Shown here: positions 8,987 through 64,000 of the stretch, piece after piece | How the letters are laid out: each line of letters opens with the position of its first letter | Numbering within the stretch: position 1 is the stretch's first letter | Source of the DNA: Streptomyces sp. NBC_01465 | GTDB lineage: Bacteria; Actinomycetota; Actinomycetes; Streptomycetales; Streptomycetaceae | Length of the DNA stretch: 64,000 nucleotides | NCBI RefSeq assembly: GCF_036227325.1 | Contig: NZ_CP109467.1 | Span: forward strand, 4,154,001 to 4,218,000 | Direction: 5' to 3' | Notes under the pieces: generated by a model | Databases searched by the model: none | What the model was told of the DNA's origin: nothing | What the model saw: the letters and a program-made list of their open reading frames with translations, nothing else | Made by a program: the position numbers and the translations under genes

Positions 8987-10429
8987 CCGAATGCCAACGA
9001 AGACAATCCCAGTGCCCTGAGCCAGGTGCAGCACCGTGCGGTCAGTGAACTGCTGCGGGTGTCCCCGGTCGCCGACGACCTCGCCCGCCGTTTCCAGGAG
9101 GCCGGGTTCAGCCTCGCGCTGGTCGGTGGCTCGGTCAGGGACGCGCTGCTCGGCCGGCTCGGCAATGACCTGGACTTCACGACCGATGCGCGGCCCGAGG
9201 ACGTACTGAAGATCGTCCGGCCGTGGGCGGACTCGGTGTGGGAGGTCGGGATCGCCTTCGGGACGGTGGGCTGCCAGAAGCAGAGCTACCAGATCGAGGT
9301 CACGACGTACCGGTCCGAGGCGTACGACCGGACCTCGCGCAAGCCCGAGGTGTCCTACGGCGACTCCATCGAGGAAGACCTGGTCCGCCGGGACTTCACC
9401 GTCAACGCGATGGCTGTCGCGCTGCCGGAGAAGGAGTTCATCGATCCGCACAACGGGCTCGGGGACCTTGCCGGGAAGGTCTTGCGTACGCCGGGCACCC
9501 CGGAGGACTCGTTCTCCGACGACCCTCTGCGCATGATGCGGGCGGCACGCTTCGCCGCGCAGCTGGACTTCGAGGTGGCCCCCGAGGTCGTCGCCGCGAT
9601 GACGGCGATGGCCGACCGCATCGAGATCGTCTCGGCCGAGCGAGTGCGTGACGAGCTCAACAAGCTGCTGCTGTCGGAGAATCCGCGCAAGGGGCTCGCG
9701 CTGCTCGTCGACACGGGTCTTGCCGCGTACGTCCTGCCCGAGCTTCCCGAGCTCCGGCTGGAGAGTGACGAACACCACCGTCACAAGGACGTCTACGAGC
9801 ACTCCCTGACCGTGCTTGAGCAGGCCATCGACCTGGAGAAGGACGGGCCCGACCTGGTGCTGCGGCTGGCTGCGCTGCTGCATGACATCGGCAAGCCGAA
9901 GACCCGCCGCTTCGAGCAGGACGGCCGCGTCTCCTTCCACCACCACGAGGTGGTGGGGGCGAAGCTGACCAAGAAGCGCATGACCGCGCTCAAGTACTCC
10001 AACGACATGGTCAAGGACGTCACCAAGCTGGTCGAGCTGCACCTGCGGTTCCACGGCTACGGGACCGGGGAGTGGACCGATTCCGCCGTACGACGGTACG
10101 TGCGCGATGCGGGGCCGCTGCTGGAGCGGCTGCACAAGCTGACCCGCTCGGACTGCACCACGCGCAACAAGCGCAAGGCGAACGCCCTGTCGCGGGCGTA
10201 CGACGGGCTCGAGGAACGGATCGCGCAGCTGCAGGAGCAGGAGGAGCTGGACTCGATCCGGCCCGACCTGGACGGCAACCAGATCATGGAGATTCTGGGG
10301 GTCAGCCCCGGGCCTGTGATCGGCAACGCGTACAAGTTCCTGCTGGAGCTGCGGCTGGAGAACGGGCCGATGGAGCATGAGGCGGCGGTTGCGGCGCTCA
10401 AGGAGTGGTGGGCCGCGCAGCAGGGCTGA
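8984..10429 (+). CDS. cca: CCA tRNA nucleotidyltransferase with HD domain
   Basis: Adds or repairs the CCA end of tRNAs. The class II nucleotidyltransferase head is at residues 40-170 (LVGGSVRD, then DLDFTTDA with the metal-binding Asp pair). An RNA-binding neck follows, then an HD phosphohydrolase domain around HDIGKPKTRRF. At 481 residues it matches actinobacterial enzymes sometimes called PcnA. The GTG at 8984 gives the conserved MPNANEDNPSALSQVQ start; longer in-frame readings upstream lack family similarity. It is divergent from the DUF6049-like gene. The mutT4-type Nudix gene found at this junction in mycobacteria is absent. Confidence 0.95.
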   Translation: MPNANEDNPSALSQVQHRAVSELLRVSPVADDLARRFQEAGFSLALVGGSVRDALLGRLGNDLDFTTDARPEDVLKIVRPWADSVWEVGIAFGTVGCQKQSYQIEVTTYRSEAYDRTSRKPEVSYGDSIEEDLVRRDFTVNAMAVALPEKEFIDPHNGLGDLAGKVLRTPGTPEDSFSDDPLRMMRAARFAAQLDFEVAPEVVAAMTAMADRIEIVSAERVRDELNKLLLSENPRKGLALLVDTGLAAYVLPELPELRLESDEHHRHKDVYEHSLTVLEQAIDLEKDGPDLVLRLAALLHDIGKPKTRRFEQDGRVSFHHHEVVGAKLTKKRMTALKYSNDMVKDVTKLVELHLRFHGYGTGEWTDSAVRRYVRDAGPLLERLHKLTRSDCTTRNKRKANALSRAYDGLEERIAQLQEQEELDSIRPDLDGNQIMEILGVSPGPVIGNAYKFLLELRLENGPMEHEAAVAALKEWWAAQQG

Positions 10430-10434
10430 GTCAT

Positions 10435-10448
10435 GTTTCACGTGAAAC
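10435..10448. other. parS site 2
   Basis: Exact GTTTCACGTGAAAC five bases after the CCA-adding gene stop. It lies in the convergent intergenic space and is followed 32 bp later by a second copy, making a parS doublet. Confidence 0.95.
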
Positions 10449-10470
10449 ATGACCGGGCGACGGCATGCCG

Positions 10471-10504
10471 GAGGGGCGGTGTTTCACGTGAAACACCGCC
10501 CCTC
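10471..10504. terminator. Perfect 34-bp palindrome with parS site 3 at its centre
   Basis: Two 17-base arms pair without a mismatch; parS occupies the central 10481-10494. It lies between convergent genes ending at 10429 and 10517. The GC-rich outer arms could act as a bidirectional terminator, although there is no unpaired loop in the DNA palindrome and no U tract. Extension of parS beyond its 14-bp core is clear from sequence; the terminator role is inferred. Confidence 0.8.
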
Positions 10505-10516
10505 CGTGTGCGCGGA

Positions 10517-11008
10517 CTACTTCTTGTAGTCCGCGAGGCAGAGCGTGAAGGAGTCCTTGCCGCTCTCGCGGTACTGCGAGTACTTCGTGCGGTCGCAGTC
10601 CCCCGAGCCGTCCTTCTTCTCGGCAACCTTGTATTTGGCCTTGGCGTCGCCGCAGTCCACGACCTCAAGATCCGGGTCAGTGGCGCTGTCCGGGTTGCTG
10701 ATGCTCATGCAGTCGCCGACCTTGGCGGTGTCCGCGTCGTCGCGGCTCGCGACCCAGCCGACTATCGCCATGATCGCGACGATTACAACAAGGCCGATGG
10801 TCTTGAACCTCTTGAACGCGCTGGGTCGTGTCGGCGTACCCATGGGCGCCTGCGGAATCGGGCCACCCTGGTTCATGTAGGGCGACTGCTGCGGCGGGAC
10901 CCCCGGCTGCTGCTGGCCGTACGGGTTGCCGCCCTGGGGCTGCTGGCCGTATGGGTTGGCGGGCTGCTGCGCGTACGGGTTCTGGCCCTGCGGCGGCGGT
11001 GTGGACAT
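10517..11008 (-). CDS. Small membrane protein with Gly/Gln/Tyr-rich N-terminus (LppU/SCO3897-like)
   Basis: Product of 163 residues. Residues 1-60 are a Pro/Gln/Tyr/Gly-rich cytoplasmic tail with repeated NPYGQQ units. A single helix (TIGLVVIVAIMAIVGWVAS) follows, then an extracytoplasmic domain with three to four cysteines (VGDCMSI, VVDCGDAKAKY, SGDCDRTKY, TLCLADY), a spacing typical of the LppU-type secreted fold. ATG start at 11008. Function unknown; the cysteine pattern suggests disulphide bonds outside the cell. It converges on the CCA-adding gene across the parS doublet. Confidence 0.8.
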   Translation of the reverse strand: MSTPPPQGQNPYAQQPANPYGQQPQGGNPYGQQQPGVPPQQSPYMNQGGPIPQAPMGTPTRPSAFKRFKTIGLVVIVAIMAIVGWVASRDDADTAKVGDCMSISNPDSATDPDLEVVDCGDAKAKYKVAEKKDGSGDCDRTKYSQYRESGKDSFTLCLADYKK

Positions 11009-11120
11009 GGTGGAGGTCCCCCTAGGAAAGGCGCACTGGCGCGTCGTTGACGCCCGTAAGTTACCGGGCCCATTCGGGGTTACTGATACCTGGAGGGGCT
11101 CTGTGGCTTTGATGTGACAC

Positions 11121-12377
11121 TTACGCGCGGCGAAAGCGGGCCATAAGTGCAGCAACTGCCGCGTAGATGAAGGCAACTGTGACGACGAGCGGGACCGATT
11201 TCCCGTCGGGCGGGAGCATCAGTGCCGCCACCGCCGCTGCTCCCACGAAGGCGACGTTGAAGAGGACGTCGTAGAGGGAGAAGACGCGGCCCCGATAGGC
11301 GTCGTCGACCGAGGACTGGACCACCGTGTCCGTGGAGATCTTCGCGCCCTGGGTGACCAGGCCCAGGACGAACGCGGCGACCAGCATCGGCACGGGCTCG
11401 AAGGGCAGGCCGAGTGCCGGTTCCAGTACGGCCGCCGAACCCGCGCAGACCGCGATCCAGCCGTACGGGCCGAATCGGCCCACCGCCCAAGGGGTCACCA
11501 CCGCCGCGACGAAGAATCCCGCGCCCGAGATCCCGAGCGCGAGGCCGAGAAGCGCCAGGCCGTCGGACTCGTCCGTGGTCCACGCGTACCGGCACAGCAT
11601 CAGCACCATCACCGTCAGCGCTCCGTAGCAGAAGCGCATCAGCGTCATCGCGGCCAGCGCGCGGGACGCCGGGCGGCGTTCGGCGAGGTGGCGGACGCCG
11701 GCGGCCAGGCCCTGCGCCGTGGAGGCCAGAGCGGCGGCCAGGCGGGGCTGGAGCAACTCCTGGTCGGGGCCGAGGAGTTCGCGGGACATCCGGAGCGAGG
11801 ACAGCGCTGCACAGAGGTACAGGAGGGCGCCCAGCAGCACCACGGCGGCGTCGGAGTCCGCGGCCAGCACCCGTACGGCCAGGGCCAGTCCGCCGCCGAG
11901 GGTCGCGGCGAGGGTGCCCGCCGTAGGGGAGAGGGAGTTGGCGATGACGAGCCGGCCGGGATCGACGACGCGGGGCAGCGCGGCCGAAAGACCGGACAGG
12001 ACAAAGCGGTTGACCGCGGTGACGCTCAGGGCCGAGGCGTAGAAGAGCCAGTCGGGGGCGGAGGCGACGATCAGCAGGGCCGTGCCCGTCGCCATGGCGG
12101 CCCGCAGCAGATTTCCGTAGAGGAAGACCTGGCGGCGCTGCCAGCGGTCCAGGAGGACGCCGGCGAACGGGCCGATCAGGGAGTACGGGAGGAGCAGGAC
12201 CGCCATCGCGGAGGCGATGGCGGCGGGAGAGGTCTGCTTCTCGGGGGAGAAGACCACATAGGTGGCGAGCGCTACCTGGTAGACGCCGTCGGCCGACTGG
12301 GAGAGCAGCCGAAGCGCCAGCAGCCGCCGGAATCCGGACAGACGCAGCAGTACGCGCAGATCACGGACGACGGCCAT
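11121..12377 (-). CDS. MFS transporter
   Basis: Major facilitator superfamily protein of about 418 residues with twelve hydrophobic segments. The N-terminal half has the loop GPFAGVLLDRWQRRQVFLYGN between helices 2 and 3, typical of drug:H+ antiporter-type efflux carriers. The start is taken at ATG 12377 (MAVVRDLRVLLRLSGF); a GTG five codons upstream is an alternative, and neither has a strong ribosome site. The substrate is not predictable. It lies just downstream of the inositol synthase gene on the same strand, separated by 78 bp. Confidence 0.85.
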   Translation of the reverse strand: MAVVRDLRVLLRLSGFRRLLALRLLSQSADGVYQVALATYVVFSPEKQTSPAAIASAMAVLLLPYSLIGPFAGVLLDRWQRRQVFLYGNLLRAAMATGTALLIVASAPDWLFYASALSVTAVNRFVLSGLSAALPRVVDPGRLVIANSLSPTAGTLAATLGGGLALAVRVLAADSDAAVVLLGALLYLCAALSSLRMSRELLGPDQELLQPRLAAALASTAQGLAAGVRHLAERRPASRALAAMTLMRFCYGALTVMVLMLCRYAWTTDESDGLALLGLALGISGAGFFVAAVVTPWAVGRFGPYGWIAVCAGSAAVLEPALGLPFEPVPMLVAAFVLGLVTQGAKISTDTVVQSSVDDAYRGRVFSLYDVLFNVAFVGAAAVAALMLPPDGKSVPLVVTVAFIYAAVAALMARFRRA

Positions 12378-12455
12378 AGCCGCAAGGGTCACATACGGAG
12401 AGGGTCCCCGGGCGGATTGCCCGGGGACCCTCAACGATCAGTCGGTGGTGGAGCT

Positions 12456-13538
12456 TTAGCGCTCGACCTCGCCCTTGATGAACTTCTCGACGTTCTCGAA
12501 GGCCTCGTCGTCGAAGTACTGAACCGGCGGGGACTTCATGAAGTACGAGGACGCGGAGAGGATCGGGCCGCCGATGCCGCGGTCCTTGGCGATCTTCGCG
12601 GCGCGCACGGCGTCGATGATGACACCCGCGGAGTTCGGGGAGTCCCACACCTCGAGCTTGTACTCGAGGTTCAGCGGGACGTCGCCGAAGGCGCGGCCCT
12701 CGAGGCGGACGTACGCCCACTTGCGGTCGTCGAGCCAGGCCACGTAGTCCGACGGACCGATGTGGACGTTGTTCTCGCCCAGCTCGCGGTCGCGGATCTG
12801 CGAGGTGACGGCCTGCGTCTTCGAGATCTTCTTGGACTCGAGGCGGTCACGCTCGAGCATGTTCTTGAAGTCCATGTTGCCGCCGACGTTCAGCTGCATG
12901 GTGCGCTCGAGGCGGACACCGCGGTCTTCGAAGAGCTTGGCCATCACGCGGTGCGTGATGGTGGCGCCGACCTGCGACTTGATGTCGTCGCCGACGATCG
13001 GGACGCCCGCCTCGGTGAACTTGTCCGCCCACTCCTTGGTGCCGGCGATGAAGACCGGAAGCGCGTTGACGAAGGCGACCTTGGCGTCGATGGCGCACTG
13101 CGCGTAGAACTTCGCAGCGACCTCGGAACCGACGGGCAGGTAGCAGACGAGGACGTCGACCTGCTGGTCCTTGAGGACCTGGACGACGTCGACGGGGGCC
13201 TCGGAGGACTCCTCGATCGTCATGCGGTAGTACTTGCCGAGACCATCGTGCGTGTGACCGCGCTGGACCGTGATGCCCTTGTTCGGGACGTCACAGATCT
13301 TGATGGTGTTGTTCTCGCTGGCACCGATGGCGTCCGAGAGGTCGAGGCCGACCTTCTTCGCGTCGACATCGAAGGCGGCGACGAACTCGACGTCACCCAC
13401 GTGGTAGTCGCCGAACTGGACGTGCATCAGACCCGGCACCTTGGCCTTGGGGTCAGCGTCCTTGTAGTACTCGACGCCCTGGACCAGCGAGGCGGCGCAG
13501 TTGCCCACGCCGACGATGGCTACGCGAACCGAACCCAT
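12456..13538 (-). CDS. ino1: myo-Inositol-1-phosphate synthase
   Basis: Converts glucose-6-phosphate to inositol-3-phosphate using NAD, the first step towards phosphatidylinositol and mycothiol. The 360-residue protein starts at ATG 13538 with GGGAG upstream and opens with the Rossmann segment [18 protein letters not shown]. Later conserved parts are [34 protein letters not shown] and the catalytic region GGNMDFKNM. The length is that of the short prokaryotic form. A PadR regulator lies 58 bp upstream on the same strand, so co-transcription is possible. Confidence 0.95.
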
Positions 13539-13596
13539 TCCGGTGGCTCCCTGTGTGATTTCAGTGGATGAGGGCCTGCTGACTGCAGGGCCTCGC

Positions 13597-14274
13597 TTAC
13601 TTGGTGTCTTCGGACGGATCCGGCGGGGTGGCACCCCGGTGCCGGGGCAGGCCGCCCGCATCTCCTGATGTGTCCTGCTGAGCAGCGCCGGCGTCGGGGG
13701 ATCGTCGCTGATCCCGGCCCGCCCGCTCGCTCTCGATGAGCTCGTTCAGCCAGCGCACTTCGCGCTCCACGGACTCCATGCCGTGCCGCTGCAGCTCAAG
13801 TGTGTAGTCGTCCAGGCGCTCGCGAGTCCGGGTCAGAGAGGCGCGCATCTTCTCCAGGCGCTCCTCGAGACGGCTGCGACGGCCCTCGAGCACCCGCATC
13901 CGCACTTCACGCTCCGTCTGCCCGAAGAAGGCGAAACGGGCTGCGAAGTGCTCGTCTTCCCAGGTGTCGGGACCGGTGTGCGAGAGCAGCTCCTCGAAGT
14001 GCTCCTTGCCGTCGGCCGTCAACCTGTAGACGATCTTGGCGCGGCGCCCTGCGAGTGAAGCGGCGAGTGCGTCCTCAGGGGCACTTCCCGGTTCCTCGAT
14101 CAACCAGCCGTTGGCGACCAGCGTCTTGAGGCACGGGTAGAGGGTCCCGTAGCTGAAGGCCCTGAAGACCCCCAGCGAGGTGTTCAGCCGCTTGCGCAGC
14201 TCATAGCCGTGCATCGGGGACTCGCGGAGCAGGCCGAGTACGGCGAATTCGAGGATGCCTGAGCGTCTGCTCAT
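13597..14274 (-). CDS. PadR-family transcriptional regulator
   Basis: Winged-helix repressor of 225 residues. The N-terminal PadR domain (residues 1-100) begins [31 protein letters not shown] long coiled-coil dimerisation region with Arg/Glu-rich helices follows ([21 protein letters not shown]), then a disordered tail. ATG 14274 is preceded by GAGGG. A long perfect inverted repeat 48-78 bp upstream is the probable autoregulatory operator. The gene is divergent from the class A PBP gene, so it may also control it; ino1 downstream could be in the same transcript. The inducing signal is unknown. Confidence 0.9.
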
Positions 14275-14321
14275 CCCTCGCCCCCTCCGCCTGTCGCTGA
14301 ACGCATCGAAGTCTTTATGCC

Positions 14322-14352
14322 GTGCTGATGTATCGAGTCGATACATCAGCAC
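14322..14352. promoter_or_regulatory. PadR-type operator (15-base arms, 1-base centre)
   Basis: A perfect inverted repeat with 15-base arms around one central G. Its core contains ATGT and ACAT separated by eleven bases, the usual PadR arrangement (ATGT...ACAT). It sits between the divergent padR and PBP genes, closer to padR, and is the most striking palindrome of this intergenic region. Binding by the adjacent regulator is inferred. Confidence 0.75.
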
Positions 14353-14489
14353 GATAGAACGGCCTTCCGGCTGGGGCAAGGGGGGTCATCGTGAACGGCG
14401 TCACATCACCAATTCGCAGCAGGCAACTTGCCTGATTTGGGGTGAACATCGGCACTCGGCAGGTTTTGACCGTGCGTAGTGTGTGCGCC

Positions 14490-14615
14490 ATGCAGACCAC
14501 AGGGAACCGAGTGACGCCTGGGGGCGTCAGCTGTCTCGGAACCAAGAGGTCCGTATGTCGGGGGGACCGGAACTCAACTGCCGCTTCCAGGCGATCTCGC
14601 CTGCCCGAGGAGTAG
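14490..14615 (+). CDS. Possible upstream short ORF (41 codons) before the PBP gene
   Basis: Runs from ATG 14490 to TAG 14613-14615 and ends seven bases before the PBP ATG, in a different frame. Its last codons (GAG GAG) form the PBP ribosome site. TAGTGT ends seven bases before this ATG, the spacing expected for a leaderless start. The translation (MQTTGNRVTPGGVSC...) resembles nothing I know. It may be a leader peptide coupling translation, or chance. Confidence 0.25.
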   Translation: MQTTGNRVTPGGVSCLGTKRSVCRGDRNSTAASRRSRLPEE

Positions 14616-14622
14616 TCGTTCG

Positions 14623-17301
14623 ATGAGCGAGCACCGTCGCAAACCGCCACAGCCGCAGGGTGGCGGTCGCGCCGCGGACAGGCGGGCTGCGCCGCAGCCC
14701 TCCGGCCGCCGCGCGGCACCTACGAGGTCCGCCCCCACCGGGTCGCCCTCCGGTTCGTACGGCGAGGAGCGTCCGTACGGCGGCCGCGCCGAAGCCAGGC
14801 GTGCCGCCCAGCGGGGTGGAGGCGGCGGCAGCCGCAGGCGCGGCGCACCCGAGGGCGGTCCTCAGGGGCCGAACGGGCCCGGAGGCCGTGGTGGTGGCCG
14901 CCGTGGTGGCGGCGGTGGCGGGCGCGGGGACGGTTTCGACGGTCCCGCAGGGCGCGGGCGCCGTCCGTCCAAGAAGCGGATGATCGACTATCCGAGGGCC
15001 AACAAGTACGGCTGGCGGCGCTGGATGCCGTCCTGGAAGCTCGTGACGGGCACCTGCATCGGCTTCACCGGCGTGCTGCTGGGTGCGGCCACGATCGCGT
15101 ACGCCATGGTGAGCGTCCCGAACGTCGCGAAGACGGCCACCGCCCAGAACAACGTCTACTACTGGGCCGACGGCAGCCAGATGGTCGCGACCGGTGGCGA
15201 GGTCAACCGCCAGATCATTCCGTACGACCAGATTCCCAAGGAGATGCGGTTCGCCGTCATGTCCGCGGAGAACAAGACCTTCGAGACGGACAGCGGCATC
15301 GACCCGCAGGGCATCGCGCGCGCGCTTCTCAACATGGCCAAGGGGGGCGAGACCCAGGGCGGGTCGACGATCACCCAGCAGTACGTGAAGAACGCGCAGC
15401 TCGACGACCAGTCGCAGACGATCAGCCGCAAGTTCAAAGAGCTCTTCATCTCCATCAAGGTCGGGACGACCAGGGACAAGAAGGAGATCATGGCCGGGTA
15501 CCTGAACACCGCGTACTACGGTCGTGGTGCTTACGGGATCCAGGCCGCGGCGCGGACGTACTTCCACACGGACGCCAAGAAGCTGAACGTGAGCCAGTGC
15601 GCCTTCCTGTCCTCGCTGCTCAAGGGCGCCACGTACTACGACCCGGCGGGCAACCCCGGGATCGACACGGAGGCGTCCGCCGAGCACAACACGATCAGGG
15701 TCACGGCGCGATGGAAGTGGACCCTCGACGAGATGGTCAAGGACGAGCGCATCAGCGCCGAGGACCGGGCCAAATACAAGACGCTGCCGCACGTCGACGG
15801 GCTGAAGAAGAACGCGCAGCTCAGCGGGCAGACCGGCTACCTGGTCGACCTCGCCAAGTCGTACGTCCAGAAGACCACCAAGATCTCGGCCAACGACCTC
15901 AGCAAGGGCGGGTACCAGATCTACACGACCTTCGACAAGAAGAAGGTCGAAGACCTGGAGGCAGCGGTCAAGAAGGTCCGCAAGGAAAAGAGCGACCCCA
16001 AGCGCGCCGAGGACAAGTACGTCCAGTTCGGCGGTGCCTCGGTGGATGTGAAGTCCGGCGCGATCGTCGCGATCTACGGCGGCGAGAACGCCACCACGCA
16101 CTTCACCAACAACGCAGACGTGACCGGTGCTCAGGTCGGCTCGACCTTCAAGCCCTTCGTGCTCGCGGCTGCACTCCGGGACGGAAAGCGCGACCCGGAC
16201 GACGGCTCCAAGCGGACCATCGTGTCGACGAAGAGTCTCTACAGCGGCAAGAACGACCTGAAGATCAAGAACTACGACGGCAGCATCTGGGAGGACAAGG
16301 ACGGCAAGGAATGGCTGCAGGAGAACGACGACAAGCAGTCGGTCGGCAGGGCTCCTGACTACGCCATCGACCTGCGTGAGGCCATGCGGGAGTCGGTCAA
16401 CTCGGCTTTCGTACAGCTCGGCATGGACGTGGGAACCGACAAGGTGAAGCAGGCGGCCGTAGACGCCGGCCTGACGGACGACCGGACCACCATGGCCAGC
16501 GACAGCGTCCCGTCCTTCTCCATCGGTACGTCCAGCCCCAGCGCCATCCGCATGGCCGGTGCGTACAGCACCTTCGCCAACAACGGCCAGCAGAACGAGC
16601 CGTTCTCCGTCAAGAGGGTCGCCCAGGACGGAGTGGACGTCTACAACCACGAGACGAAGACGAAGTCCGCCTTCTCCTCCGCGATCGCCAGCAACGTCAC
16701 CGACGTACTGAAGACCGTGGTCGACAAGGGCACCGGCACCTCTGCCCAGCTTCCGGACGGCCGGGAGGTCGCAGGCAAGACCGGTACCACTGACGAGAAC
16801 AAGTCCGCCTGGTTCGTCGGCTACACCCCGCAGTTGTCGACCGCCATCGACATGTACCGGCTGGACGACACCCACAAGGTCTCCGGGTTCCAGAAGATGT
16901 ACGGCACCTTCGGCAAGGACAAGATCCACGGTGCCTCGTTCCCCGCGGAGATCTGGCACGACTACATGACGAAGGCGATGGCCGGCCAGCCGGAGCTTTC
17001 GTTCCCGTCGGCCGAGGATCTCGGTGAGGTCGTCTACGGCGGTGGCCTGTCGAGCCCCGAGCCGACGCCGACCATCGTCCCGACGCCCACCCCCTCGCCG
17101 ACGCCGTCGATCCCGACCCCGTCCTTCACGCCGACGCCGACGCCGACCCCCACCTCCAGCTGCAGCAAGTGGGATTGGACCTGCAACGGCAACAGCACCA
17201 CGCCCACGCCCTCGGCCACCACGAGCAGTCCGGGGAACAACGGCGGCAGCAACGGGAACGGCAACGGAGGAACCGGCGTCTTCGGTGGGACGACCGGCTA
17301 G
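14623..17301 (+). CDS. Class A (bifunctional) penicillin-binding protein
   Basis: Polymerises and cross-links peptidoglycan at the outer membrane face. Of 892 residues, 1-135 are an Arg/Pro/Gly-rich cytoplasmic tail and the membrane anchor is near 138-162. The GT51 transglycosylase domain follows (SAENKTFETDSGIDPQGI, GGSTITQQYVKN). The transpeptidase has SxxK at S507-K510 (STFK), SxN at 591 (SVN) and KTG at 719. The C-terminus is a long Pro/Thr repeat linker with a short two-cysteine segment (CSKWDWTC) and a Gly/Asn-rich end. All catalytic motifs are present. ATG 14623 has GAGGAG upstream. Confidence 0.95.
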   Translation: MSEHRRKPPQPQGGGRAADRRAAPQPSGRRAAPTRSAPTGSPSGSYGEERPYGGRAEARRAAQRGGGGGSRRRGAPEGGPQGPNGPGGRGGGRRGGGGGGRGDGFDGPAGRGRRPSKKRMIDYPRANKYGWRRWMPSWKLVTGTCIGFTGVLLGAATIAYAMVSVPNVAKTATAQNNVYYWADGSQMVATGGEVNRQIIPYDQIPKEMRFAVMSAENKTFETDSGIDPQGIARALLNMAKGGETQGGSTITQQYVKNAQLDDQSQTISRKFKELFISIKVGTTRDKKEIMAGYLNTAYYGRGAYGIQAAARTYFHTDAKKLNVSQCAFLSSLLKGATYYDPAGNPGIDTEASAEHNTIRVTARWKWTLDEMVKDERISAEDRAKYKTLPHVDGLKKNAQLSGQTGYLVDLAKSYVQKTTKISANDLSKGGYQIYTTFDKKKVEDLEAAVKKVRKEKSDPKRAEDKYVQFGGASVDVKSGAIVAIYGGENATTHFTNNADVTGAQVGSTFKPFVLAAALRDGKRDPDDGSKRTIVSTKSLYSGKNDLKIKNYDGSIWEDKDGKEWLQENDDKQSVGRAPDYAIDLREAMRESVNSAFVQLGMDVGTDKVKQAAVDAGLTDDRTTMASDSVPSFSIGTSSPSAIRMAGAYSTFANNGQQNEPFSVKRVAQDGVDVYNHETKTKSAFSSAIASNVTDVLKTVVDKGTGTSAQLPDGREVAGKTGTTDENKSAWFVGYTPQLSTAIDMYRLDDTHKVSGFQKMYGTFGKDKIHGASFPAEIWHDYMTKAMAGQPELSFPSAEDLGEVVYGGGLSSPEPTPTIVPTPTPSPTPSIPTPSFTPTPTPTPTSSCSKWDWTCNGNSTTPTPSATTSSPGNNGGSNGNGNGGTGVFGGTTG

Positions 17302-38169: not shown

Positions 38170-38187
38170 CTATAAATATGTCGATAG
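38170..38187. promoter_or_regulatory. LysR-type T-N11-A box
   Basis: CTAT and ATAG arms with ten bases between, the interrupted palindrome expected for LysR regulators, in an AT-rich patch upstream of the lysR start. Confidence 0.5.
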
Positions 38188-38265
38188 GTCTCTGTCGCTA
38201 CCGTGATTGGACACTGACGCAGAGTCAACTAGCCTTGATGGGGCGGTTCTTCGCGCGTGGAACCG

Positions 38266-38304
38266 GGACGGTCCGAGCCATGAGGGGGGAGGCTCGGACC
38301 GTCC
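38266..38304 (-). terminator. Terminator after the PLP-enzyme gene
   Basis: Perfect 14-base stem with an eleven-base purine-rich loop, starting 17 bases past the stop at 38321 in the leftward direction. Separates the ptpA-PLP-enzyme transcript from lysR. Confidence 0.75.
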
Positions 38305-38320
38305 GTTGTACGTAGGGGTG

Positions 38321-60478: not shown

Positions 60479-61342
60479 TCAGAGGCTCTGCAGGATCTGT
60501 TCGATGACCACCGCGACGCCGTCCTCGTTGTTGGCGACGGTGCGGCCCGACGCGGCGGCCAGCACGTCCGGGTGCGCGTTGCCCATGGCGTACGAGGTGC
60601 CCGCCCAGGTCAGCATCTCGATGTCGTTGGGCATGTCCCCGAAGGCGACGACCTCGGCGGGCGCGATGCCGCGCTCGGCGCAGCACAGCTCCAGCGTCGA
60701 GGCCTTGGAGACGCCGGGGCCGCTGACCTCCAGGAGGGCGGTCGGCGAGGAGCGGGTGACCGAGGCGCGGTCGCCGACGGCGGTACGGGCCAGGGCCAGG
60801 AAGGCGTCGGGGGACAGCTCGGGGTGGTACGCGAGGATCTTCAGTACGGGCTGCTCGGCGGTGTCCGCGTCCTCGGCGAGGAGCTTCTCGGCGGGCGCGA
60901 TGCCGGAGGCCGGGTCCAGGTGCATGGGCGGATAGGCCAGCTCGTGGTGTATCCCGCCGGTCCGCTCGACGGCGAAGGACGTGCCGGGGGCCGCGGCGCG
61001 CAGGATGTCGACTACCGCGAGGGCGGTGAGCCGCTCCAGCGGGCGGACCTCGACGAAACGGTGCTCTCCGGGGCCGCCGTGCAGATCGACGACCGCGGCA
61101 CCGTTTCCGCAGATCGCAAGACCGTGGCCGTGGACGTGGTCGCTGACGACGTCCATCCAGCGGGCCGGTCTGCCAGTGACGAAGAAGACCTCGATCCCGG
61201 CCTTCTCTGCGGCGGAGAGCGCGGCGACCGTACGGGCGGAGACCGATTTGTCGTCGCGGAGCAGGGTGCCGTCGAGGTCGGTGGCGATCAACCGGGGCGG
61301 TACGGGGAAGGCGGCGGGGGCAGGGCCGGTAGCTGAGGTCAC
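60479..61342 (-). CDS. Cof-type HAD-IIB phosphatase
   Basis: 287 residues. Motif I is ATDLDGTLLRDDKSVS, motif II is VFFVTGRPARWM, motif IV is VAFGDMPNDIEML; the alpha/beta cap (IIB) lies between. Typical sugar-phosphate phosphatase family; substrate unknown. GTG 61342 with GGGAG upstream; longer frames exist but lack ribosome site. Converges on the peptidase gene with eight bases between. Confidence 0.9.
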   Translation of the reverse strand: MTSATGPAPAAFPVPPRLIATDLDGTLLRDDKSVSARTVAALSAAEKAGIEVFFVTGRPARWMDVVSDHVHGHGLAICGNGAAVVDLHGGPGEHRFVEVRPLERLTALAVVDILRAAAPGTSFAVERTGGIHHELAYPPMHLDPASGIAPAEKLLAEDADTAEQPVLKILAYHPELSPDAFLALARTAVGDRASVTRSSPTALLEVSGPGVSKASTLELCCAERGIAPAEVVAFGDMPNDIEMLTWAGTSYAMGNAHPDVLAAASGRTVANNEDGVAVVIEQILQSL

Positions 61343-61472
61343 AGATCCATTCTCCCGCACGATGCGCACGGGCGTGCGAGGAGGCGCACATATGAGTGCG
61401 GTGCGGGCCGGAGTTGGCCGAAGATCGCCGCCGCGGAAATCCCCATGGGCATTGTCAGTGCCCGGTCCTACG

Positions 61473-61598
61473 ATGGCTCCCAACTACCGTGTCCTGCCCG
61501 CCTCGTGGCGCCGCAGGGACGGGCCGTTCGCGATGCGTGAGGGGGGACCCCGCGATCGCCCGACCCCGCGCATGAGCACGCGAGGTGACCTCCTGTGA
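61473..61598 (+). CDS. Possible upstream short ORF (41 codons) before the Hsp90-like gene
   Basis: Opens at ATG 61473 and ends at TGA 61596-61598, overlapping the GTG start of the Hsp90-family gene in a GTGA. It reads MAPNYRVLPASWRRR... with no known family. Position suggests a coupled leader peptide; chance cannot be excluded. The rest of the gap between 61343 and 61594 shows nothing else definite. Confidence 0.25.
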   Translation: MAPNYRVLPASWRRRDGPFAMREGGPRDRPTPRMSTRGDLL

Positions 61599-63451
61599 CG
61601 TCTTCCCGTACGCCCGAAATCCCGTCCGATCCCGCCGTCAACACCTTCCAGGTCGATCTGCGGGGGCTCGTCGACCTGCTCTCCCACCACCTCTACTCCA
61701 GCCCGCGCGTCTACGTCCGCGAGCTGCTGCAGAACGCCGTGGACGCCTCCACCGCCCGGCTCGCCCAGGACGCCGCCGCCCCGGTCCGCATCCGGATCTC
61801 GGTGACGGCCGCGGGGGCGGTGACCATCGAGGACTCCGGGATCGGCCTCACCACCGACGAGGTGCACACGCTGCTCGCCACGATCGGGCGCTCCTCGAAG
61901 CGGGACGGACTGGAGAGCGCCCGGCAGGAGTTCCTCGGCCAGTTCGGCATCGGGCTGCTGGCCTGCTTCGTGGTGGCCCGGCAGATACGGGTGGTCTCGC
62001 GCTCCGCCCGTACGCCAGAACTTCCGCCCGTGGAATGGCTGGCGACCGACGACGGCTCGTACACCGTGCGCACGCTCCCCGACGAGGCGCGCCCCGAGCC
62101 CGGGACCACCGTCTATCTGGAGGCGAGGCCCGGCGCCGAGGAGTGGACAACTCCCCGGCGTGTCGAGGAACTTGCGCGGGACTTCGGTTCGTTGCTCCCG
62201 TACGAGGTGACCTTCACCGGACCGGACGGCGCGACCCGCCCCGTCACCGACCGGCCCGCCGTGTGGGACCGCCCGTACCCGACCCCGGTCGCCCGCCGGG
62301 TCGCCCTCGCCGGGCACTGCACCCAGGTCTTCGGCTTCACCCCGCTGGACACCGTCGACCTGGACCTCCCCGTCGCCGGGGTGCGCGGCGTCGCCTATGT
62401 GCTCCCCTCCGCCATCAGCCCCGCCCACCAGGCCGGCCACCGCGTCTATCTGAAGGGAATGCTGCTCACCGACCGGGCCGACAACCTGCTCCCCGACTGG
62501 GCGTTCTTCGTCCGCGTCGTCCTGGACACCGACACCCTGCGGCCCACCGCGTCCCGCGAGAGCCTGTACGACGACGACACCCTCGCCGCCGTACGGGACG
62601 CGCTCGGCGGGCGCATCAGGGAGTGGCTGACGCAGCTCGCCGCGGGGGACCCCGACCGGCTCGCCGCCTTCCTCACCGTGCACCACCTGGGCGTGAAGTC
62701 CCTCGCCCGGTACGACAGGGACCTGCTGGAACTGATGCTGCCCTGGCTGCCGTTCGAGACCAGCGACGGGCGGGTGACGCTCGACGAGTTCGTACGGGCC
62801 CACCCCCAGGTGCACTACACGCGCACGGTCGAGGAGTTCCGCCAGGTCGCCCCGATCGCCGCCGCCCACGGGCTCGGCGTGATCAACGGCGGATACACGT
62901 ACGACGCCGAGCTCGTCGCGATGCTGCCGCAGATCAGGGACGGGGTGAGCGTCGCCGAGCTGGACGCCGGGGCGGTCACCGCCCACCTCGACCCGGTGGC
63001 GCCGCAGCAGGAGCTGGCGCTCTCCTCCTTCCTGGCCACCGCCCGCACCACGCTCGACCCGCTCGGCTGCGACGTCGCCCTGCGCGCCTTCCAGCCGGTG
63101 ACGGTCCCCGCCCTCTTCCTCGACGACCGCCAGGCCCGCCACGAGCGCGACCGCGCGGCCGCCGAGGCCGACGCCGACGCGCTGTGGACCGACATCCTCG
63201 GCGCGCTGCGCGGCTCCGCACCCCGGGCCAGGCTCGTCCTCAACCACAACAACCCGCTGGTCCGCCGTATCGCCGCCATCCCCGACACCGAACTGGCCGG
63301 TACGGCAGTGGAATCGCTGTACGGGCAGGCGCTGCTCATGGCCCAGCGCCCGCTGCGCCCCATCGACGCCTCCCTGCTCAACCGGTCCTTCCTCGGGCTC
63401 CTGGAGTGGGCCACCCACCCGATCGCCACGAGCCAGGAGGAGCAGAGTTGA
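61595..63451 (+). CDS. Hsp90-family ATPase
   Basis: 618 residues with the GHKL ATPase domain of HtpG: ELLQNAVDA (E43, N47), DSGIGL (D80), and GQFGIGLLACFVV (lid and G-box). The middle domain has the conserved arginine (R321 in TASRES). It is highly divergent from HtpG beyond these motifs; the C-terminal dimerisation region is not recognisable. GTG 61595 near AGGTGA. Coupled to the next gene by overlap (TTGA). Likely a specialised actinobacterial Hsp90-type protein; client unknown. Confidence 0.88.
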   Translation: MTSSRTPEIPSDPAVNTFQVDLRGLVDLLSHHLYSSPRVYVRELLQNAVDASTARLAQDAAAPVRIRISVTAAGAVTIEDSGIGLTTDEVHTLLATIGRSSKRDGLESARQEFLGQFGIGLLACFVVARQIRVVSRSARTPELPPVEWLATDDGSYTVRTLPDEARPEPGTTVYLEARPGAEEWTTPRRVEELARDFGSLLPYEVTFTGPDGATRPVTDRPAVWDRPYPTPVARRVALAGHCTQVFGFTPLDTVDLDLPVAGVRGVAYVLPSAISPAHQAGHRVYLKGMLLTDRADNLLPDWAFFVRVVLDTDTLRPTASRESLYDDDTLAAVRDALGGRIREWLTQLAAGDPDRLAAFLTVHHLGVKSLARYDRDLLELMLPWLPFETSDGRVTLDEFVRAHPQVHYTRTVEEFRQVAPIAAAHGLGVINGGYTYDAELVAMLPQIRDGVSVAELDAGAVTAHLDPVAPQQELALSSFLATARTTLDPLGCDVALRAFQPVTVPALFLDDRQARHERDRAAAEADADALWTDILGALRGSAPRARLVLNHNNPLVRRIAAIPDTELAGTAVESLYGQALLMAQRPLRPIDASLLNRSFLGLLEWATHPIATSQEEQS

Positions 63452-64000
63452 GCACCCCGACCCCCACCGAGATCCGTCAGGCCGTCTGGGAGAACGAGAA
63501 CGCGCCCAACGGTCTGCTGCGCAACGCCCGCGCCGAGGAGCTGGTCGCCGCGGCCGAGCAGGCGGGGGACCGCGGTGTGCTGCGGACCGCGCTCTTCGGT
63601 CTGATCAAGGCGTACGAGTACAGCACCGAGCGCGGCAAGATGCTGGTGCCGTTCGCCCGGCTGATGAAGGAGTGGGACCAGGATCCGTCCGCCTTCGACT
63701 CCATGGACACCTACTACTTCCACTGGATGTTCAAGTGGGTCACCTCGGGCATGCTCTCGCTGCCCGAGGTCCCCCTGGCCGCCATGGAGGGGTGGCTGGT
63801 GGAGATGGAGCGGCGCTACCGGCTGGCCGGATTCACCGAACGTGCCGTACGGCAGGCCGAGTTCGACCTCGCCGACGAGACCGGTGACCGGGAGCGTGCC
63901 GACCGCGCCTTCGCGGCCTGGACCGCGGCCGAGCGCGACCGGATGGCCAACTGCCACGCCTGCGAGCTCAACGACCAGGGGCACCACTGGTACGAGCGGG
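63448..64000 (+). CDS. Partner of the Hsp90-like protein, helical/TPR-like (cut by window edge)
   Basis: Starts at TTG 63448 with AGGAGG seven bases upstream; the start overlaps the TGA of the Hsp90-like gene. 184 codons visible. Mostly alpha-helical with an ALFGLIKAYEYSTERG-type repeat pattern, plus a CxxC (NCHAC) and nearby His (DQGHH) that may bind zinc. TPR-like repeat assignment is a guess; no catalytic motif. The C-terminus is beyond base 64000. Confidence 0.7.
   Translation, partial: MSTPTPTEIRQAVWENENAPNGLLRNARAEELVAAAEQAGDRGVLRTALFGLIKAYEYSTERGKMLVPFARLMKEWDQDPSAFDSMDTYYFHWMFKWVTSGMLSLPEVPLAAMEGWLVEMERRYRLAGFTERAVRQAEFDLADETGDRERADRAFAAWTAAERDRMANCHACELNDQGHHWYER

Follow-up and report, generated by a model that had tools for sequence, protein, structure and literature searches.

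Two adjacent genes at the 3′ end of the window, the whole 64,000-nucleotide stretch of DNA analysed here, encode an Hsp90 and a helical-repeat protein which are kept together across genomes. In 151 genomes of the genus the same gene follows this Hsp90 in 112 of 112 cases, thus the pairing is more than chance. We suggest that the two genes encode a dedicated Hsp90-TPR chaperone machine, with the partner docking on the Hsp90 and bringing the clients, a reading that we hold with belief and doubt in about equal measure. The original prediction had already raised the idea of a dedicated two-gene chaperone system, and the pairing, joint duplication and co-evolution of the two genes lend support to it. 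The window corresponds to G000:C1:4154001-4218000 of a genome that consists of a single contig of 9.1 Mb. Streptomyces is the named source of the closest relatives of the locus among the database matches listed. The features are collected in Table 1.

Table 1. Features at the 3′ end of the window, in window positions.
Feature	Position	Strand	Remark
41-codon ORF of the original prediction	61473..61598	+	rejected as a gene
Conserved DNA ahead of the Hsp90 gene, shared by type A Streptomyces loci	61529..61594	+	blastn and alignment, 16 upstream stretches
Type A Hsp90 gene (618 aa, NF010683 family)	61595..63451	+	GTG start
Partner gene, first 184 codons	63448..64000	+	958 aa in all
TTGA, Hsp90 stop overlapped by the partner's start	63448..63451	+	direct reading
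Partner CxxC (C169-H-A-C172)	63952..63963	+	part of the conserved N-terminal module

The partner's start codon is the TTG at 63448-63450 and the Hsp90 stop codon the TGA at 63449-63451, so the overlap of the two genes that had been proposed can be read directly from the DNA. Beyond position 64000 the partner gene continues for another 2,324 bases (stop at L008:7324), and two of the residues discussed below, C204 and H232, are also encoded outside the window. The complete protein (P0001) has the same length, 958 residues, in the protein database (P0004, 100% over the compared part). The earlier description of the second gene as coding for a helical protein with a CxxC motif is thus borne out by the motif itself and by the helical model, but the gene does not end at 64000.

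The Hsp90 reaches 833 bits against the NCBIfam model NF010683 ('HSP90 family protein', cut-off 455) and a second Hsp90 of the same genome, which we call type B, reaches 812.7 bits. With the HtpG equivalog model NF003555 both remain below the cut-off of 371 (180.2 bits for type A, 183.8 for type B). For the sequence comparisons we used sets of chosen sequences (n = 72 and n = 47, the latter for the residue alignment of the Hsp90s). The profile of the 47 chosen relatives spans residues 9-609 of E. coli HtpG with the same three-domain layout, and the ATPase residues are the same as in HtpG. E43, N47, D80 and R321 are invariant columns among the 47; when HMMER aligns them with E. coli HtpG (2iop), counting along the aligned rows places E43 on E34, N47 on N38 and R321 on R336. 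The predicted model (pLDDT 88.4, with low confidence at 101-110) matches full-length TRAP1 and cytosolic Hsp90s in a Foldseek search, the best E-value of 1.7e-33 being that of TRAP1. The protein thus has the N-terminal ATPase residues, the middle-domain arginine and the N-M-C layout of the Hsp90 superfamily. Both the family assignment and the intact ATPase motifs of the original prediction therefore hold. In the tree 35 NF010683-type Hsp90s are separated from nine actinobacterial HtpG-like sequences with a support of 100, at a point where long branches meet. From these sequence data the protein is best read as an ATP-driven chaperone whose clade is separate from that of HtpG.

In a family search of the window genome the only full-length Hsp90s found were those of the two NF010683 genes; the one other match was an ORF in which just the ATPase domain is recognised. 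An HtpG-like gene would have shown up, since this model gives such genes from sister genomes about 175-196 bits. The ATPase-domain match (G000:C1:4693501-4693779, L012) lies in an open frame of 1111 codons and has 27.5 bits; similar matches are present in 11 of the 12 genomes that represent the genus in the phylum sample.

The original prediction had called this the least described unit of the window. This does not hold for the Hsp90, which has an NCBI equivalog model (NF010683 / PRK14083) and is a member of it; that model covers the Hsp90 alone and not the linked partner. For the partner the statement fits, as it is named without a function among the records listed, either 'tetratricopeptide repeat protein' or 'hypothetical protein'. 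Two HtpG genes of different groups, one of them of 615 aa, are described for Streptomyces coelicolor in the available part of Chen et al. 2006 (PMC1525184). The window Hsp90 may correspond to the 615-aa protein; the partner gene is unmentioned in that part of the paper. The literature searched, which covers few subscription-journal papers, holds no description of the Hsp90-partner pair. In short, the Hsp90 family is known by annotation, and its genetically near-obligate TPR partner is undescribed in this literature.

The partner belongs to the helical-repeat (TPR) proteins and consists of a conserved N-terminal module of about 375 aa followed by a variable TPR tail. The TPR solenoid is a fold used in protein binding. 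The predicted model is helical (pLDDT 93.7), and fold and profile support TPR-like helical repeats of the LGN/kinesin-light-chain kind. With Pfam PF13424 as a single-sequence search P0001 scores 28.3 against a gathering score of 30.1, and the partner of the second pair of the genome (P0003) is below it too, at 21.5. Accordingly no NCBIfam or Pfam model is over its cut-off for the partner; a Pfam TPR gathering score is passed by the Listeria partner and by the G270 protein discussed below. No solved relative of the module's first 375 residues is found among the listed matches, a weak test which says nothing on the novelty of the fold.

The N-terminal module bears the pattern CxxC...C...H, that is, C169, C172, C204 and H232. 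The three cysteines are present in 95 and the histidine in 91 of 97 aligned rows. On this conservation, a metal may staple the helical solenoid of the module, with zinc as the likeliest candidate. H232 is absent from the Listeria, Paenibacillus and Dermabacter rows and from one Corynebacterium row, and in the partner from Murinocardiopsis flavida (L127) all four residues are lost together. A metal can therefore not be essential in L127. The combination of TPR and CxxC is also found in CnoX/YbbN, described in the available part of one paper (PMC10490939) as a bacterial thioredoxin-TPR chaperone. However, the partner has no thioredoxin match in Pfam and its CxxC sits in the helical solenoid.

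How firmly the two genes are linked was assessed in a genus sample of 151 genomes and a phylum sample of 296 genomes, counting each Hsp90 over the NF010683 cut-off. The 112 Hsp90s of the genus sample come from 96 genomes, 16 of which have two copies. Each has the partner module just downstream on the same strand, with 6-110 bases between the profile edges. Rare co-occurrence had been named as the outcome that would speak against the original prediction, and this is not what we find. We left uncounted a fragment at a contig end in G320 (230 bits over 138 profile positions), possibly a further Hsp90, which has no partner match. In the phylum sample there are 15 Hsp90s over the cut-off in 12 genomes, and the module is present for 14 of them. 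We further collected 95 Hsp90 loci, consisting of the best 80 database relatives (rich in Microbacterium and Streptomyces), 13 fetched loci and two of our own. In 90 of these the module lies in an ORF starting at most 400 bases past the Hsp90 stop. As to the other five, in L086 it is found behind a frame-broken Hsp90, in L090 (Dermabacter) one further gene lies between Hsp90 and partner, L087 ends too early to read the neighbour, and L054 and L113 are described below.

Overlapping and antisense frames aside, the loci share no third gene beside the pair. The largest other ORF clusters comprise four of 36 loci; one, from four Microbacteriaceae loci, is an aldehyde-dehydrogenase-like ORF, and another occurs in L008, L047, L088 and L135. 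With no cluster beyond the pair in more than four of the 36 loci, a broader operon is unsupported.

One could argue that the two proteins do not touch at all and are two separate quality-control proteins made together from a shared operon in a common stress programme. Coupled translation and common regulation would by themselves hold the genes together, and in L090 the neighbour is not contiguous. Yet the pairing in 112 of 112 cases, the joint duplication and the paralogue-specific co-evolution described below exceed the needs of shared regulation, and we regard this explanation as hardly probable.

More weight has to be given to the idea that the partner is an effector and at the same time the sole or main client of the Hsp90. 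The Hsp90 would then be a private chaperone for the folding or activation of this large TPR protein, and the partner would have its task elsewhere, perhaps as a scaffold or regulator. The asymmetry of the pairing fits this idea, as in the genus sample the Hsp90 is not seen without the partner (112/112) while three of the 115 module matches are without an Hsp90 of this family. Two of these are from related genomes (G162:C1:474850-476004, L138, and G418:C58:17340-18494) and a partial one is from G368; such lone partners are possibly undercounted, at most 13 first-look candidates having been scored per genus genome. A tblastn search of the 15 kb surrounding the G162 gene found no Hsp90 remnant. 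Of 16 module matches in the phylum sample two are unpaired, the one in G162 and one in G192 (L139:5957-7609). In the latter a fusion joins the module with a YbjN domain (PF10722, 61.5 bits against 22) and there is no Hsp90 within the surrounding 15 kb, thus the module can serve another context. A pure co-chaperone is not expected to outlive its Hsp90. The lone partners (G162, G418, the partial one in G368 and G192) therefore count against this role and in favour of an effector or client.

On the other hand, the fifteenth Hsp90 of the phylum sample (G270, L054) has in the partner's place an ATGA-overlapping protein of 297 aa without clear similarity to the module. It is a TPR protein over the Pfam cut-off (PF07719, 27.8 against 27). 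That an unrelated-looking TPR protein can take the place suggests that it is the slot that is preserved and not a particular client. Moreover, the partners from Bacillota are short, about 320-353 aa, and unlikely to need an Hsp90 of their own, and that one genome keeps two copies independently is also at odds with a private chaperone. On balance we consider the effector-client explanation rather unlikely.

The second pair of the window genome is found in L009 (Hsp90 10330-12162, partner 12165-15095). Between the two pairs of the genome, identity is 60% for the Hsp90s (602 columns) and 38% for the partners (537 columns). Types A and B each form one clade, with a support of 93 and 100 in the Hsp90 tree and of 97 and 100 in the partner tree, both trees being quick builds with long-branch warnings. 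As the types split alike in both trees, the pair is duplicated as a unit. The distances among Hsp90s and among partners correlate with r = 0.92 over 87 of the 90 loci (L080, L134 and L094 left out), a value reached in none of 2000 permutations. Since shared species history adds to such a correlation, we compared cognate with swapped pairs within genomes. In all three two-copy genomes the cognate pairs correlate with 0.94-0.97, the swapped pairs of the same genome with 0.51-0.62. Co-evolution of cognate proteins fits a private client equally well, and the branches of the partner tree, which are longer than those of the Hsp90 tree, also agree with a client.

Upstream of type B pairs we observed a gene for a protein of 328 aa (L009:9297-10283), which is present in five of five loci of the genome samples and in the plasmid records L137 and L141. 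It has no Pfam or NCBIfam match.

Returning to the chaperone machine that we prefer, we suggest that it could work in these steps. The conserved N-terminal module of the partner would dock on its cognate Hsp90. The client would then be selected by the variable TPR tail or, where the partner consists of the module only (about 320-380 aa), by a third protein. Finally, ATP cycling of the Hsp90 would fold, hold or release the client. That the Hsp90 has not been seen without a TPR partner wherever its context is readable implies that its task needs one. Because the slot can be filled by the G270 TPR protein, the tail varies and the partner tracks its own Hsp90 paralogue, we favour a docking and client-selecting subunit.

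Combinations of an Hsp90 with a TPR protein are likewise found in eukaryotes, where Hop/Sti1, Cpr6 and FKBP51/52 serve as co-chaperones whose TPR domain attaches to the C-terminal MEEVD of Hsp90. For Cpr6 this is stated in the available part of one paper (PMC4428384). In contrast, none of the 23 bacterial Hsp90 tails inspected ends in EEVD, and the TPRs of the partner are LGN/kinesin-light-chain-like. Since the tails examined are without MEEVD, docking cannot follow the eukaryotic TPR clamp. For E. coli HtpG it is stated in the available part of the same paper that no co-chaperone has been found so far. HtpG does cooperate with the DnaK system and, in M. tuberculosis, with DnaJ2, as far as the available part of a further paper goes (PMC10269695).

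ATPases of the GHKL type also invite a search for an anti-phage or other conflict system. The models for TmtA and type II restriction enzymes in PADLOC match the ATPase domain (best E-value 6.9e-9), family Hsp90s occur in three Streptomyces plasmid records (NZ_CP081497.1, NZ_CP108841.1, NZ_CP030864.1) and the distribution within the genus is patchy (96/151 genomes). However, the PADLOC matches span residues 17-137 of the Hsp90 only, a domain common to GHKL ATPases, no defence gene was seen recurring beside the pair, and the actinobacterial relatives branch largely by taxonomy. With PADLOC 2.0.0 at an E-value of 0.01 there is no match for P0001, P0003 or the type B upstream protein. A known anti-phage system is thus unsupported, and a conflict function of any sort appears highly improbable to us.

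The original prediction further included a coupled ORF of 41 codons ahead of the Hsp90 gene. An open frame exists there; it is the tail of a frame of 205 codons (60981-61598) running antisense to the neighbouring minus-strand gene. Its translation matches only itself among 15 loci, and the DNA aligned from 16 upstream stretches has indels. Over all loci examined the next-best match has an E-value of 0.019 and is far from any Hsp90 start. The frame thus has no convincing protein relative in these loci, and we rejected it as a gene. What is conserved at this place is DNA. A stretch at about 61529-61600 can be aligned with the sequence ahead of other type A Hsp90 genes, with indels of one base, and this points to a leader or regulatory element. 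The conserved upstream stretch of Table 1 is therefore probably a leader or regulatory sequence. There were no matches to HAIR and CIRCE operators, and a scan for sigma-70-type promoters and terminators found none. The Rfam scan of the window gave a single match, away from the pair, which is the small RNA Scr3920 at 38183-38307 on the plus strand (134.8 bits, gathering score 88).

Complete pairs are also found outside Actinomycetota, namely in Paenibacillus and Listeria of the Bacillota. In one Listeria record (L136:5803-7771) a single Hsp90 gene is followed by the short partner twice in tandem. The Listeria Hsp90 adjoins fri and is probably lmo0942. In the available parts of two papers lmo0942 is listed among heat-shock genes (PMC10393277) and mentioned as a neighbour of fri (PMC3534079). 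Planctomycete and acidobacterial records are among the named sources of NF010683-type Hsp90s. In a planctomycete MAG (L113) the contig ends 55 codons into an ORF which overlaps the Hsp90 by ATGA; this partial ORF scores 26.6 bits with the module profile, the best of 200 shuffles 2.5. The module is also found in a Hyalangium protein.

Tentatively, and with doubt somewhat outweighing belief, we propose that bacteria may possess an Hsp90 co-chaperone machine of their own. In it an Hsp90 clade other than HtpG would be kept only alongside a TPR partner dedicated to it, as complete pairs in at least two phyla and as a begun one in a third. A metal-stapled docking module would replace the MEEVD-TPR clamp, and variable TPR tails would set the choice of clients for each paralogous pair. 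An Hsp90 with one constant TPR partner is a ready two-component system for asking when and how Hsp90s gained TPR helpers, and it lets one ask how clients are specified. The two paralogous pairs within one cell are a natural test of specificity, and the L127 partner is a natural variant for the supposed metal site.
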